This document shows, in pieces, positions 11,752 to 16,355 of a stretch of DNA of 55,165 nt. The stretch covers positions 1-55,165 of the forward strand of contig JABXIQ010000041.1 of assembly GCA_013373015.1 (NCBI GenBank), given 5' to 3'. Each line of letters begins with the position of its first letter. Within the stretch, counting starts at the first letter, position 1. Origin of the DNA: Kangiellaceae bacterium. GTDB taxonomy: Bacteria; Pseudomonadota; Gammaproteobacteria; Enterobacterales; Kangiellaceae. Position numbers and translations under genes: made by a program. The notes beneath the pieces are model-generated. The model searched no databases. It was given only the letters and a program-made list of their open reading frames with translations, and was not told the origin of the DNA.

Positions 11752-11965
11752 GGATTAGCTTAGAAATCTCAAGGATAAATAATTAGTGCAGGCATTATAT
11801 AAGGCAGTGCTTTTTGTACAAGAATTTCCGTTAGGTTGCTTAATAATTTGATTATTCACCAGTATTTGCATAAATCATTGTTTTTGTTAGTATCATCTAA
11901 GTATTAAGGAGTTCCCCACATCTACACTGTTATGCGTAATAATTAATAAGTCAAAGGATTAGATA

Positions 11966-13732
11966 GTGAAAGAAATAACATTTCAAGTTGATACTAGACT
12001 AGCAAAGCTTCTCTCACAAAATTATAGGTCAACTGAAAGAGCTTTAAAGGAATTAGTGGATAATGCATGGGATGCTGATGCAGAATCAGTAAATATTTTA
12101 CTTCCAGAACCTATGTCAAAAACTCCAATTGTAGTTCATGATACGGGTTCAGGCATGACGGAAGAGGAACTTTTACGAGAGTATTTATTCATAGCTAGTG
12201 ATCGCAGAAAAAGAAGAGGTGAACTAACCGCTGAGAAAAAGAGAAAGGTCAAAGGGAAAAAAGGTATAGGCAAGTTTGCTGGGTTAATGATCGCAAAAGT
12301 GATGAAGCTCGAAACTTGGTCACGAGGTAAAAAGTGTGAGTTTTCGATTAAAACGACTGACTTTGAAAACGCAACAGATATTGAAGATTTGCCCATTGAT
12401 TTGACTGTTGAGGATTGTGACAGAGAGATAAAAGGAACCAAGGTTACGCTATCAGAGCTTATTCAAGGATTATCGTTTCCAAACCCAGAAAAATTCAGAC
12501 AACTTTTACTTCAGGAATATGGTCGCGAAGAAGGATTCAAGGTTGAGGTTAATCAAAAAGCTTTAGGGATTGACGATATACAAGGAAACTACACTAAACA
12601 TCAAGCTGATTTGCCGTCTGCTGGCGCTATAAAACTAGAATTTACCGTCTCTAATCAAAAAGGGAAGCTCAAACAACCAGGTATATCTATTCGCGTAGGC
12701 GGTAAAATAGTAGGAAGCCCAGACTTTTTTGGGCTAGATAAAGAGGAAGATTTTCCGCCCAAACTGCTTGAAAAAATCTATGGTGAAGTAGAAGTAGATG
12801 GTTTATTCGACCACGTAACTGCTGACTGGGGTGCCCTAGTTGAAAATAGTGAACTATACCAAGAAGTGTCTGAGTATATTCGCCCAATAATTAAGAAAAA
12901 AGTGAAAGAAGAATATGGGCGTGAGATGAATCTTGCTCAGGCCAGATTAAAGAAGCGGATAAACGAAAGACTTTCCCAACTGCCAGAATATAAGAGGCAG
13001 TACGCCGATAAGGCCATTAAATCAATTCTAGGTAGATATTATGGCGAACCTGAAACAAAAGTAGAGCCCATTGTTGGAGTGTTGTTGGATGCTCTTGAAA
13101 GAACAGACTATAGAGCGGTTCTAGACTATATTCACGAGGCGGAACATTCAGATATTGCAAAACTGGCGGAAGCTTTAGCAGAATTTGGTTTGGCTGAGAT
13201 AGCTATAGTCGGTGAACAGGCGAAAAGCAGACTAGAGTTTCTCGATAGATTTGAAGAATTATGTAAAAACTCAGATACAGAAGAAAGTGTTGTTCACTCA
13301 GCACTTGAAAAGAGTTTGTGGGTCTTTGGCGTTAAATATTCTATGTTCAGCAGCAACAAGACATTAAAGCGACAGGTAGAGGGATATCTTGGCAAAAAGT
13401 TTACGGGTGAAAGAGCAAACAAAAGGCCAGATCTATTATTAAGTGTAAATTATGCAAATGAGTATCTTCTTCTTGAATTCAAGCGACCGAGCCATAACTT
13501 GAGATATAAAGATTATCAGCAAGCAACAGCATATAGGAATGACTTTGTACCCTACACTGAAGCCGCGGAAATGAAAATTATCTTAGTAGGCGGAAAAAGA
13601 GGGCAAGATCTTCCACCTCACTACAATAAAGAGCCTAACACCGAAGTTTTTATATTCGATGAAATAATCTCTAGTGCTAGGAATCAATTAAATTGGCTTT
13701 TAACCGAGCTTGGTGGAGAAGCTCATGCGTAG
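11966..13732 (+). CDS. GHKL-type ATPase fused to a PD-(D/E)xK-like nuclease domain; candidate defence protein
   Basis: A 588-residue protein with no close match that I can name. The N-terminus is a GHKL (Hsp90/MutL/MORC) ATPase: N-box ELVDNAWDA (29-37), then HDTGSGM (58-64, the DxGxG lid-binding motif), and KGKKGIGKFAG (96-106). A middle region (about 200-300) resembles the transducer domain of such ATPases. A helical charged segment follows (about 300-390). The C-terminal 120 residues contain RPD (487-489), then EFKRP (504-508), spaced like the PD...ExK metal site of restriction-like nucleases. MORC/MutL-like ATPases joined to nucleases are known from bacterial conflict systems, so defence is a reasonable inference, not shown. 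It stands alone on the plus strand among minus-strand genes. Confidence 0.7.
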   Translation: MKEITFQVDTRLAKLLSQNYRSTERALKELVDNAWDADAESVNILLPEPMSKTPIVVHDTGSGMTEEELLREYLFIASDRRKRRGELTAEKKRKVKGKKGIGKFAGLMIAKVMKLETWSRGKKCEFSIKTTDFENATDIEDLPIDLTVEDCDREIKGTKVTLSELIQGLSFPNPEKFRQLLLQEYGREEGFKVEVNQKALGIDDIQGNYTKHQADLPSAGAIKLEFTVSNQKGKLKQPGISIRVGGKIVGSPDFFGLDKEEDFPPKLLEKIYGEVEVDGLFDHVTADWGALVENSELYQEVSEYIRPIIKKKVKEEYGREMNLAQARLKKRINERLSQLPEYKRQYADKAIKSILGRYYGEPETKVEPIVGVLLDALERTDYRAVLDYIHEAEHSDIAKLAEALAEFGLAEIAIVGEQAKSRLEFLDRFEELCKNSDTEESVVHSALEKSLWVFGVKYSMFSSNKTLKRQVEGYLGKKFTGERANKRPDLLLSVNYANEYLLLEFKRPSHNLRYKDYQQATAYRNDFVPYTEAAEMKIILVGGKRGQDLPPHYNKEPNTEVFIFDEIISSARNQLNWLLTELGGEAHA

Positions 13733-13773
13733 AAACATATAACGAGTCAAAGCACACAAACGTAGCCCACACC

Positions 13774-14022
13774 CTAATGCTGCAATGCTGACTTTAGCTG
13801 CTCAGGATTATTGGTGGTTATCACGAGTTGACGTGTTTCACCTTTGATATCTAAAACAATTGCCTCTTTAGCGCGGCCAACAAAACCTGTTTGCTTCAAA
13901 CCAAAACGATAGCCAAATCCTAAAAAATCAGTCGCTGGGTTGCCTACATAATCGGTAACTTGCTCAATATCAGTTAACTTAATATTCTTTTTCCCAACCC
14001 ACGAGCCTAAATTTACTAATAA
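13774..14022 (-). pseudogene. 5'-truncated duplicate of the membrane/PH-like protein gene at 15864
   Basis: Positions 13783-14022 match 15870-16109 over about 240 bp with about 11 mismatches by eye (near 95%). The match covers the last ~80 codons of the intact gene, in the same orientation. The reading frame stays open to a TAG at 13774-13776 (the last residues become LKSALQH instead of LKSALR), but both membrane helices and the start codon are missing. It ends abruptly after ACTAATAA, where a copy of the GGTCRGAGAC repeat begins. This accounts for most of the gap between the GHKL gene and the beta-helix gene. Confidence 0.85.
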
Positions 14023-14091: not shown

Positions 14092-15603
14092 TTATGGGAT
14101 CGGATTTCTAAATTTAAATTCATAAGCACCGATATCGCAAAGACTGTCACGACTTATATATCGTTGGTCATATCTCAAATCACACTCAATTACTCCAGCA
14201 TTATGTGCCGAGCTTCCTGCGCCGATAGGATGAGTTTTGGTGTTCCCGCCGTAATAACCAAAGCTTTGCAGCCCAGGATCGGCGAAGATTAGATTACTTG
14301 GGTAATACCAAACTTGAATAATATTGCAATAAGAAGTGTTAGTAATAATGTTATCACCTCTTATGATAACCCCTGCGGAACAGTCGCTAGGATTATTGTT
14401 GGCTAAAATAGTATTCAATAGTGTGAAATTAGCTGAACTTGAATTACCGACTAAAGCACCGCCAGAATTCGAGTTATTATTAGCTAATGTCACATGATTT
14501 AATAATATTCTAGGATTAGTATCATTGGGTACATATATGGCGGCCCCTCTCACAGCAGAATTGCCAGAAATAGTTGTATTCTCGATAGTCATATCGACAG
14601 AATCACCATATACATCAATAGCTCCTCCCACATAATCTGACCGATTGTTTCCAAAGGACGAGTGAGCAATTTTTATTTTCCCAACAGAGTACGATATCAG
14701 AGCTCCACCTACTCTATCAGCATAGTTATCATCAAATTCTGTTGTTTTAATGTCTACATCAATTTCATTACCTAAATAAATAGCTCCCGCCTGTAGAGAG
14801 GCGCGATTGCCTATAAATTTACTATTACTAATCGCTAACTCTTTATTTATTGCCATCATTGCTCCACCAACAGAGGCAAAGTTATTTCTGAACTGGACAG
14901 AAGAGAAACTCGCATAGTCGACATTTGGCGGTATATAAACAGCACCACCAGTACCGGCACTATTACCAATAAAATTAGAATTTTTAATAGTCACTCTCGA
15001 CGCAAGATTAGAATTATCTAAGGCGTCAGCATGTATAGCAGCACCTGTACCATCTATTGCTTGATTAAAATAAAAATCACTATCAGAAACATCAAGCGAG
15101 AAACTACTAGTAATAGCACCGCCCATAGGAGTCGCCTCGTAGTTATAGCGTTCTGCTATGTTGTTAATAAATTGGCAATTTTCTATACTTAGCAAGCTGG
15201 TTTTATCGGAATTAAATGATCTCGCTAAAATAGCGGCTCCCGCATCAGCATGCGATGCTTTGACCTTTCCATTAACGAAGCTAAGATTCTTGAGTGTTAT
15301 TTTTTTATAGCTAGTGGTCCTAAAATAAAAAATTCGACTATTTCCGTTGGCATCAATAATCACCGCATCAGGAGATAAAGCTCGAATGATTAGGCTTTTA
15401 TTGGAGATATAGATTTGTCCAAGCGTAAGCGTTATCCTGCCACTACCTTTGATGATAATCTCATCTCCAGAACTCGCTTGAGATATTGCGCCTCGTAACG
15501 ATTTAGAAGAATAATTATCAGAAAAATCAGTAACATAGTGTGTTGCGGCTACCGACATCTGAGAAAAAAGAATTAATAGAAGCGAAAAAAATAGTTTTTT
15601 CAT
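14092..15603 (-). CDS. Exported right-handed beta-helix protein (choice-of-anchor Q-like)
   Basis: A 503-residue secreted protein of unknown target. I chose the ATG at 15603 (MKKLFFSLLLILFSQMSVAA, a clear signal peptide) with GGGG upstream, over a TTG at 15624. The start of the mature part (TDFSDNYSSKSLRGAISQAS, then DEIIIKGSGRITL) is typical of polymorphic beta-helix proteins. The body has many short repeats of the form N-S-x-F-x-G-N-x-A-x-x-G-G-A, for example FIGNSAGTGGAVYIP and TISGNSAVRGAAIYVP. The C-terminus DIGAYEF is a common end of this class. No transmembrane anchor or sorting tail follows. It lies between two copies of a short repeat and two copies of a neighbouring gene, which suggests insertion. 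Confidence 0.8.
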   Translation of the reverse strand: MKKLFFSLLLILFSQMSVAATHYVTDFSDNYSSKSLRGAISQASSGDEIIIKGSGRITLTLGQIYISNKSLIIRALSPDAVIIDANGNSRIFYFRTTSYKKITLKNLSFVNGKVKASHADAGAAILARSFNSDKTSLLSIENCQFINNIAERYNYEATPMGGAITSSFSLDVSDSDFYFNQAIDGTGAAIHADALDNSNLASRVTIKNSNFIGNSAGTGGAVYIPPNVDYASFSSVQFRNNFASVGGAMMAINKELAISNSKFIGNRASLQAGAIYLGNEIDVDIKTTEFDDNYADRVGGALISYSVGKIKIAHSSFGNNRSDYVGGAIDVYGDSVDMTIENTTISGNSAVRGAAIYVPNDTNPRILLNHVTLANNNSNSGGALVGNSSSANFTLLNTILANNNPSDCSAGVIIRGDNIITNTSYCNIIQVWYYPSNLIFADPGLQSFGYYGGNTKTHPIGAGSSAHNAGVIECDLRYDQRYISRDSLCDIGAYEFKFRNPIP

Positions 15604-15784
15604 ACATACCCCAAATTTAAGCAACCCTGCAACTCATCCATGGCAGGTTTTACAGTAAACTAGTAACATTTTACCCCATAATATATAAGCAGACTCATAA
15701 GCACATTACCAGAACATACATCCTTTAAGCAATTCCTAGCACTAAATTAGAATAAGCTAAAAACTAAAGGGGAAAAGCTCAAGG

Positions 15785-15820: not shown

Positions 15821-15867
15821 AGACAAAATATAACAAGTCTCATTAACCAGTGACTTTGCCCTTTTAC
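15809..15867 (+). repeat. GGTCRGAGAC repeat, right copy
   Basis: Partner of 14024-14083. It contains a small stem GAGAC / GTCTC around AAAATATAACAA and wider complementary ends (GGGTCA with TGAC, AAAGGG with CCCTTTT). It overlaps the stop codon of the following minus-strand gene (15864-15866), so in that gene's transcript it is the 3' end. Confidence 0.7.
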
Positions 15868-16355
15868 CTCAATGCTGACTTTAGCTTCTCAGGATTATTG
15901 GTGGTTATCACGAGTTGACGTGTTTGACCTTTGATATCTAAAACAATTGCCTCTTTAGGGCGGCCAACAAAGCCTGTTTGCTTTAAACCAAAACGATAGC
16001 CAAAGCCTAAAAAGTCAGCCGCTGGATTGCCTACATAATCGGTAACTTGCTCAATATCAGTTAACTTAATATTCTTTTTCCCAACCCACGAACCTAAGTT
16101 TACTAATAATTCCTGGTCAGTAACCTTAATACGAATTCTCAAACGATAAACAAAATAGATAATCAAACCCACCAAAAGACACAACAGCAAGGCCATCTCA
16201 CTCGATATTGGTTTTTCACCAAAAGGCTTCTCTAAAACTGTTTGTGAATAGAAAATATAAGCAAATAAAAGAAACAATCCAACGTTGATCGCCACCACAG
16301 CCAGCAAAACCCACTGCGGCATAACTTGTTGAGATTCATGATATTTAATAGTCAT
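15864..16355 (-). CDS. Small membrane protein, two helices plus PH-like cytoplasmic domain
   Basis: A 163-residue protein of unknown function. Two membrane helices are visible (about 16-38, WVLLAVVAINVGLFLLFAYI; about 53-70, LLCLLVGLIIYFVYRLRI). The C-terminal ~90 residues look like a bacterial PH-type beta domain (VTDQELLVNLGSWVGKKNIKL, ending TTNNPEKLKSALR). The C-terminal part is duplicated in the truncated copy at 13774. The stop codon lies inside a repeat. No catalytic motif is visible. Confidence 0.7.
   Translation of the reverse strand: MTIKYHESQQVMPQWVLLAVVAINVGLFLLFAYIFYSQTVLEKPFGEKPISSEMALLLCLLVGLIIYFVYRLRIRIKVTDQELLVNLGSWVGKKNIKLTDIEQVTDYVGNPAADFLGFGYRFGLKQTGFVGRPKEAIVLDIKGQTRQLVITTNNPEKLKSALR

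Follow-up and report, generated by a model that had tools for sequence, protein, structure and literature searches.

A predicted solitary anti-phage GHKL-Shedu nuclease from a compact subfamily in a Kangiellaceae genome

The window analysed here is a 55,165-nucleotide stretch of a Kangiellaceae genome (contig JABXIQ010000041.1). Its plus strand carries an open reading frame (ORF) that starts with GTG at 11966, has a stop ending at 13732 and encodes 588 amino acids (aa), exactly where an earlier note, made from the letters of the DNA, had placed a GHKL ATPase fused to a PD-(D/E)xK nuclease. We propose, with a probability of about 0.8, that the gene encodes a solitary, horizontally acquired anti-phage GHKL-Shedu nuclease (Shedu type I-D or paraMORC3) of a compact subfamily distinct from VcSduA, the GHKL-Shedu protein of Vibrio cholerae. 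Domains, motifs, fold, family and mobility, and the lack of a DNA methylase as judged by three families, were observed directly.

Domain matches, motifs and fold all support the fusion. The Pfam model HATPase_c_3 matches residues 22-158 (E = 9.1e-28), and the C-terminus carries the DUF4263/SduA_C PD-(D/E)xK nuclease domain of Shedu proteins, with a score under the curated cut-off. PADLOC divides the chain likewise, with REase_II models matching the N-terminus and SduA models the C-terminus. An enzymatic domain with all its motif residues lies N-terminal to the nuclease, as in Shedu type I-D, and the succession of GHKL domain, S5-like domain and C-terminal restriction-endonuclease (RE)-fold nuclease with E-D-ExK residues is that of paraMORC3. 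Conservation was assessed in 12 full-length members, the window protein and 11 relatives 43-79% identical to it (pairwise identity at least 40%, median 46%; the rhizobial-type members L032, L037 and L038 are mutually close). ATPase residues E29, N33, D59, G61, G63, G97, G100, G102 and T158 and nuclease residues E440, D489, E504, K506, Q519 and G542 are identical in all 12. With this conservation and the HATPase_c_3 match, the ATPase motifs at residues 29-106 and the RPD...EFKRP signature at 487-508 (R487-P488-D489 and E504-F505-K506-R507-P508), both picked out earlier, are not chance resemblances. Invariant positions number 55 of 186 in the GHKL domain and 30 of 110 in the nuclease; in the last 43 residues there is one, and constraint on this tail of the window protein is nearly nil.

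In the AlphaFold2 model, residues 7-321 match MORC2, HSP90 and GyrB, and the C-terminal domain is predicted to fold as a PD-(D/E)xK nuclease with Shedu as its top structural match. The whole-protein Foldseek rows listed are taken up by the GHKL part, with a template-modelling (TM) score of about 0.26, and we therefore claim no whole-chain similarity. The nuclease fold resembles that of classical Shedu proteins (Bacillus cereus SduA, 8ti8/8ti9; Escherichia coli SduA, 8ps4/8ps5); E440, E504-x-K506 and Q519 align with invariant classical residues, and D489 lies one column from the Shedu Asp. The N-terminal part of classical Shedu is different, however, and the GHKL ATPase is unmatched there.

In a maximum-likelihood tree built from 35 N-terminal domains, 32 of them different, 15 rows form a single clade on a long stem (support 100/100), apart from 20 other GHKL proteins. 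The clade holds the window copy, an Aliidiomarina copy, viral-contig copies (L090, L091, L093-L095), plasmid copies and two genome copies; duplicates and loci failing the motif filter, including L092 and a distant group (L033/L043-L047), were left out, and long branches were flagged. Motif-I Glu and the ExK Lys are 477-480 residues apart in all 12 full-length clade members, compared with a candidate spacing of 498 to 536 in other GHKL proteins. In VcSduA the spacing is about 530 (E27, K557), a figure that sets the clade apart and derives from published residue numbers. On these sequence comparisons, the clade appears to be a compact GHKL-Shedu subfamily, deeply separate and distinct from VcSduA.

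The kind of protein is already known. ParaMORC3 was described by Iyer, Abhiman and Aravind in 2008 as GHKL plus S5 plus a C-terminal RE-fold domain with E-D-ExK, some members standing alone, in proteobacteria and bacteroidetes (PMC2292703). VcSduA, from the V. cholerae WASA lineage, was reported in 2025 as a GHKL plus DUF4263 anti-phage protein of Shedu type I-D; it protects E. coli against Drexlerviridae (T1-like) and V. cholerae against vibriophage X29, E27A or K557A abolishes protection so that both activities are needed, and growth curves agree with host survival (PMC12137116). Shedu nucleases in general vary in their N-terminal domains, and some of them sense DNA ends (PMC12904381, PMC12409362). 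The suggestion in the earlier note of an undescribed system has accordingly to be withdrawn: what is left as novel is the subfamily, not the kind. Like VcSduA, the window protein is a single protein with an N-terminal GHKL ATPase, a middle clamp region, a C-terminal DUF4263 nuclease and no partner needed, and it shares with paraMORC3 the domain order, the E-D-ExK residues and the existence of a stand-alone subset. Unlike the paraMORC families, which the same text ties mainly to restriction-modification (R-M) operons, the clade lacks a nearby C5 methylase in 16 of 16 loci. No description of a compact prophage-borne branch was found in the literature searched, which included a minority of subscription papers. 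The GHKL-Shedu architecture and its anti-phage role are already published; a compact, deep, prophage-borne subfamily without an adjacent C5 methylase appears to be new.

Relatives of the gene are patchy, mobile, accessory genes, borne on prophages and plasmids. The gene is present in 1 of 20 genus genomes, the window's own. Among the 19 others, two of which are only 55% and 86% complete, 12 gave weak matches that extend no farther than residues about 25-208; the ORFs concerned measure 449-653 aa, and we take them to be common GHKL proteins. At E<=1e-12, with the own genome counted, 6 of 369 class genomes and 6 of 398 phylum genomes match; besides the own copy these include two full-length relatives (56% and 47%) and one matching residues 22-497 at 23%, the others being N-terminal only. 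Plasmids gave 19 matches in 72,556 records, six at 46-53% over near full length, from alpha- and betaproteobacteria; L039, one of the six, carries an interruption: the annotated gene stops early and the match falls into two pieces. A search of viral contigs with alignment A1 yielded 20 loci, five full-length (79, 71, 56, 53 and 43%), one partial (64%) and 14 with an N-terminal match only, outside the clade; the window protein as a single query found none in the viral contigs. The same single query recovered one relative from an 84,980-species genome collection, which is therefore thinly sampled. A blastn search of E. coli genomes gave no match. The earlier note had made its reading depend on the C-terminal fold and on relatives that are more than core genes: the predicted fold is the expected one, with Shedu on top and EndoMS level by Z, and the relatives are accessory, several with defence or phage genes in their vicinity.

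The nearest copy, in Aliidiomarina haloalkalitolerans (L002), shares 82% identity in residues 1-255 and 91% in 241-588, and in the 21 kb of this locus compared, DNA similarity to the window is limited to 11952-13736, the gene. An insertion of about 1.2 kb (L002:8769-10006) interrupts this copy and bears a transposase that, by eye, is presumably IS3-type. Directly upstream of the copy lie an AriA-like ATPase and a PDC-M29B-like partner, and farther upstream hsdM and hsdS of a type I R-M system. The Sinorhizobium meliloti plasmid copy stands opposite a candidate defence helicase of the PDC-S28 type (tested on L037), and the A. pusense copy (L038) has in the same place an equal-length ORF annotated as a DEAD/DEAH helicase. 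The L050 copy lies between phage tail genes and a stretch that holds a 924-aa ORF unmatched in PADLOC, a type III-type methylase, a UvrD-type helicase and a TmtA-like gene. Phage genes accompany the viral-contig copies: major capsid, portal, protease and terminase within the same 10 kb in L092, tail tape measure and tail fibre in L091, integrase and a ThsA-like gene in L093, integrase, exonuclease and DNA polymerase in L094, and terminase pieces about 7 kb away in L090. The phage or prophage status of these contigs rests on the source collection and on such genes, and is weakest for L090 and L094. PADLOC matched 10 of 20 hand-picked neighbour proteins at 1e-5 (L002, 5/6; L037, 1/1; L050, 3/4; L093, 1/1).

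In the window, no methylase or helicase adjoins the nuclease gene, and the stand-alone arrangement described earlier is borne out. We surveyed loci of the clade and of other GHKL proteins by tblastn with four C5 methylase queries. None of 16 clade loci had a C5 methylase nearby. Among 29 loci that belong to other GHKL proteins, 21 had one; four of these 21 supplied the queries, and several viral ones are near-identical. The remaining eight are L003 and L029, with short flanks, and L043-L047 and L052 of the distant group, with 10-19 kb flanks; because these last loci also lack one, the lack of a neighbouring C5 methylase is not unique to the clade. SduA_C had no match in the three distant-group proteins tested (L033, L043, L047). 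Five other GHKL proteins have C-terminal domains that match both the clade nuclease (probability 97.6, E = 3.6e-12) and Shedu (96.6, E = 5.5e-10), and four of the five have a C5 methylase beside them (L120, L121, L122 and L025, the last being the same gene as L085; the flanks of L029 are short). Since GHKL proteins beside a C5 methylase share the Shedu-like C-terminus, the two-domain design is common to R-M-like pairs and solitary enzymes. In the host genome, neither PF00145 (control matches in 10 of 14 genomes) nor PF01555 (N6_N4_Mtase; 11 of 14) had a match, and PF02384 (N6_Mtase) gave two weak ones, one just above the cut-off, which NCBIfam names RlmKL and ribosomal protein L3 glutamine methyltransferase. 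These three families revealed no DNA methylase, an absence that is not absolute because the genome is 95% complete; it is thus unlikely that self DNA is protected by a partner methylase of the classical sort.

Three further GHKL loci were observed. A second GHKL group of 645-674 aa on viral contigs (L096-L109) has a C5 methylase adjoining it at all 14 loci, several of which are near-identical; these are probably phage-borne R-M pairs. In the record of Escherichia phage PhiR44_1 (L120:5941-8989), which has P2-style gene names, a gene annotated paraMORC3 stands opposite a Dcm methylase, with portal and terminase genes close by. On a plasmid of Rhizobium sp. B21/90 (L046:4911-8316), a distant-group GHKL ATP-binding protein is immediately followed by a separate gene annotated as a Shedu immune nuclease family protein.

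Several points weigh against the proposed anti-phage role. The SduA_C match (residues 438-519, E = 5.8e-4) scores 20.5 bits, below the curated cut-off of 27; Foldseek E-values for the C-terminal domain are weak (best 0.012), and the repair nuclease EndoMS ties with Shedu by Z (10.8 vs 11.1). The window copy is surrounded by housekeeping genes rather than a defence island. Other methylases do occur near some clade loci (hsdM in L002, the type III-type gene in L050). PADLOC matched no chosen neighbour in L036 (0/4), L040 (0/2), L092 (0/1) or L094 (0/1), and the neighbours being hand-picked, all such counts are examples rather than a measure of enrichment. The window protein found no relative among 50,697 INPHARED phage records at 1e-5; the L093 protein found four, all N-terminal only and covering at most 33% of the query. 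The anti-phage activity of the subfamily is itself predicted, by analogy.

BbrUII/HgiDII enzymes operate with a cognate methylase. That the window protein is a type II enzyme of this kind, its methylase unlinked or lost, would account for a related GHKL domain and for the NCBIfam BbrUII/HgiDII match (E = 7e-46, two stretches, the better at residues 20-205), and relatives adjoining C5 methylases have the same Shedu-like C-terminus. The match reaches 157 bits against a cut-off of 550, however, and no C5 methylase appears in the host (PF00145) or at the clade loci; with no N6_N4_Mtase match either, and both weak N6_Mtase matches named as non-DNA methylases, we consider this explanation improbable and have rejected it. 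About equally improbable is a modification-dependent, type IV-like restriction in which the clamp would recognise modified phage DNA: a solitary nuclease in a host without a detected methylase agrees with it, but the Pfam matches of the window protein include no modified-base reader domain, and VcSduA targets T1-like Drexlerviridae, no modified-base requirement being stated in the accessible part of that report (PMC12137116). Hardly probable at all is a MutL/EndoMS-like nuclease of DNA repair or anti-recombination. The tie with EndoMS speaks for it, but the Shedu structural matches span 142-158 residues, more of the nuclease domain than EndoMS, and the distribution is patchy, mobile, and prophage- and plasmid-borne. 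Identity with MutL was rejected, the best model scoring 30.8 bits against a cut-off of 180, over residues 26-69 only.

In gyrase, MutL, HSP90 and MORC, ATP-dependent N-terminal dimerisation of the GHKL domains shuts a clamp. By analogy with such proteins and with VcSduA, a single-gene anti-phage system in which ATP-driven closure gates cleavage, as the earlier note put forward, appears most likely. The window protein would dimerise through its GHKL domain, and ATP binding would shut the clamp formed by the GHKL domain and the transducer, with incoming DNA probably encircled by it or lying against it. Closure would free or align the Shedu-type nuclease, which would cleave DNA through E440, D489, E504 and K506 with a divalent metal, and ATP hydrolysis would reset the protein. 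Self DNA may be spared without a partner methylase through DNA ends, topology, or an unmodified or replicating state; the foremost candidate cues for foreign DNA are topology or open ends, the latter being sensed by E. coli Shedu. The order of clamp events and the sensing cue are pure inference. From the VcSduA and Shedu papers we infer that both ATPase and nuclease would be required, and that the protein would restrict DNA directly rather than cause cell suicide.

More tentatively, the prophage- and plasmid-borne clade might be an "R-M enzyme without M" that parted from relatives linked to C5 methylases and built of the same pair of domains; in place of methylation, an ATP-driven topological clamp would distinguish self from invader, and resident prophages would use it against rival phages. 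We regard this as possible, on the doubtful side. VcSduA is the one experimentally tested GHKL-Shedu nuclease found in the literature searched, and the clade, a second, deeply separate and smaller branch on prophage-type contigs, offers an independent compact enzyme for studying ATP gating of a Shedu nuclease. Because GHKL proteins adjoining C5 methylases share both domains, the sparing of host DNA with and without methylation is directly testable.

Table 1. Coordinates of the GHKL-Shedu gene, its domains and motifs, and an adjacent gene fragment in the window.
Feature	Position	Strand	Basis or remark
GHKL ATPase - Shedu-type nuclease	11966..13732	+	588 aa, ORF; Pfam HATPase_c_3 9.1e-28, SduA_C 5.8e-4; 11 aligned relatives
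GHKL ATPase domain, about residues 20-205	12023..12580	+	Pfam 22-158; MORC2/HSP90/GyrB structure match; invariant motifs
Motif I, E29-N33	12050-12064	+	in GHKL domain
DxGxG motif (D59, G61, G63)	12140-12154	+	in GHKL domain
GxxGxG motif (G97, G100, G102)	12254-12271	+	in GHKL domain
T158	12437-12439	+	in GHKL domain
MORC/S5-like transducer region, about residues 206-320	12581..12925	+	invariant G246-K247
Helical linker, about residues 321-435	12926..13270	+	AlphaFold2 model, confidence partly low
Shedu-type PD-(D/E)xK nuclease (predicted), about residues 436-588	13271..13729	+	SduA_C match, fold
Nuclease residues	E440 13283-13285; D489 13430-13432; E504-x-K506 13475-13483; Q519 13520-13522	+	
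Truncated copy of 3' part of gene 15864-16355	13777..14022	-	82-aa fragment, between nuclease gene and PMP-type gene

On one flank of the nuclease gene lie an ABC ATPase gene, which we take to be of ABC-F type, and ruvB; on the other lie a PMP-repeat gene, a gene without a Pfam match, a Sel1-repeat gene and ruvA-ruvC. The G+C content of the nuclease gene (38.9%) is within one standard deviation of that of the window genes (41.2 +/- 2.7%), and composition therefore gives no sign of transfer. The ABC-F-ruvB pair is present in all 19 other genus genomes, and the nuclease gene is absent from their ruvB-flanking stretches (5.8-16 kb; two end at contig ends). An integration hotspot was considered here and set aside: where both the ABC-F gene and the 15864 gene are present, in 11 of 19 stretches, they stand 2.9-7.7 kb apart, and the interval has variable contents and many ORFs common to several genomes.

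The truncated gene copy in Table 1 shares 93.8% identity, across 81 aa, with residues 83-163 encoded by the intact gene, and reads as a rearrangement scar. A 240-bp direct repeat (13783-14022 / 15870-16109; 95.4%; the 3' half of the 15864 gene) flanks the PMP-type gene (14092-15624). This gene had no tblastn match in the ruvB-flanking stretches of the 19 other genus genomes, and it probably arrived along with the partial duplication. In the 10 of 19 genus stretches (L053-L071) that reach ruvA, a gene-rich interval of variable contents separates ruvA from ruvB.
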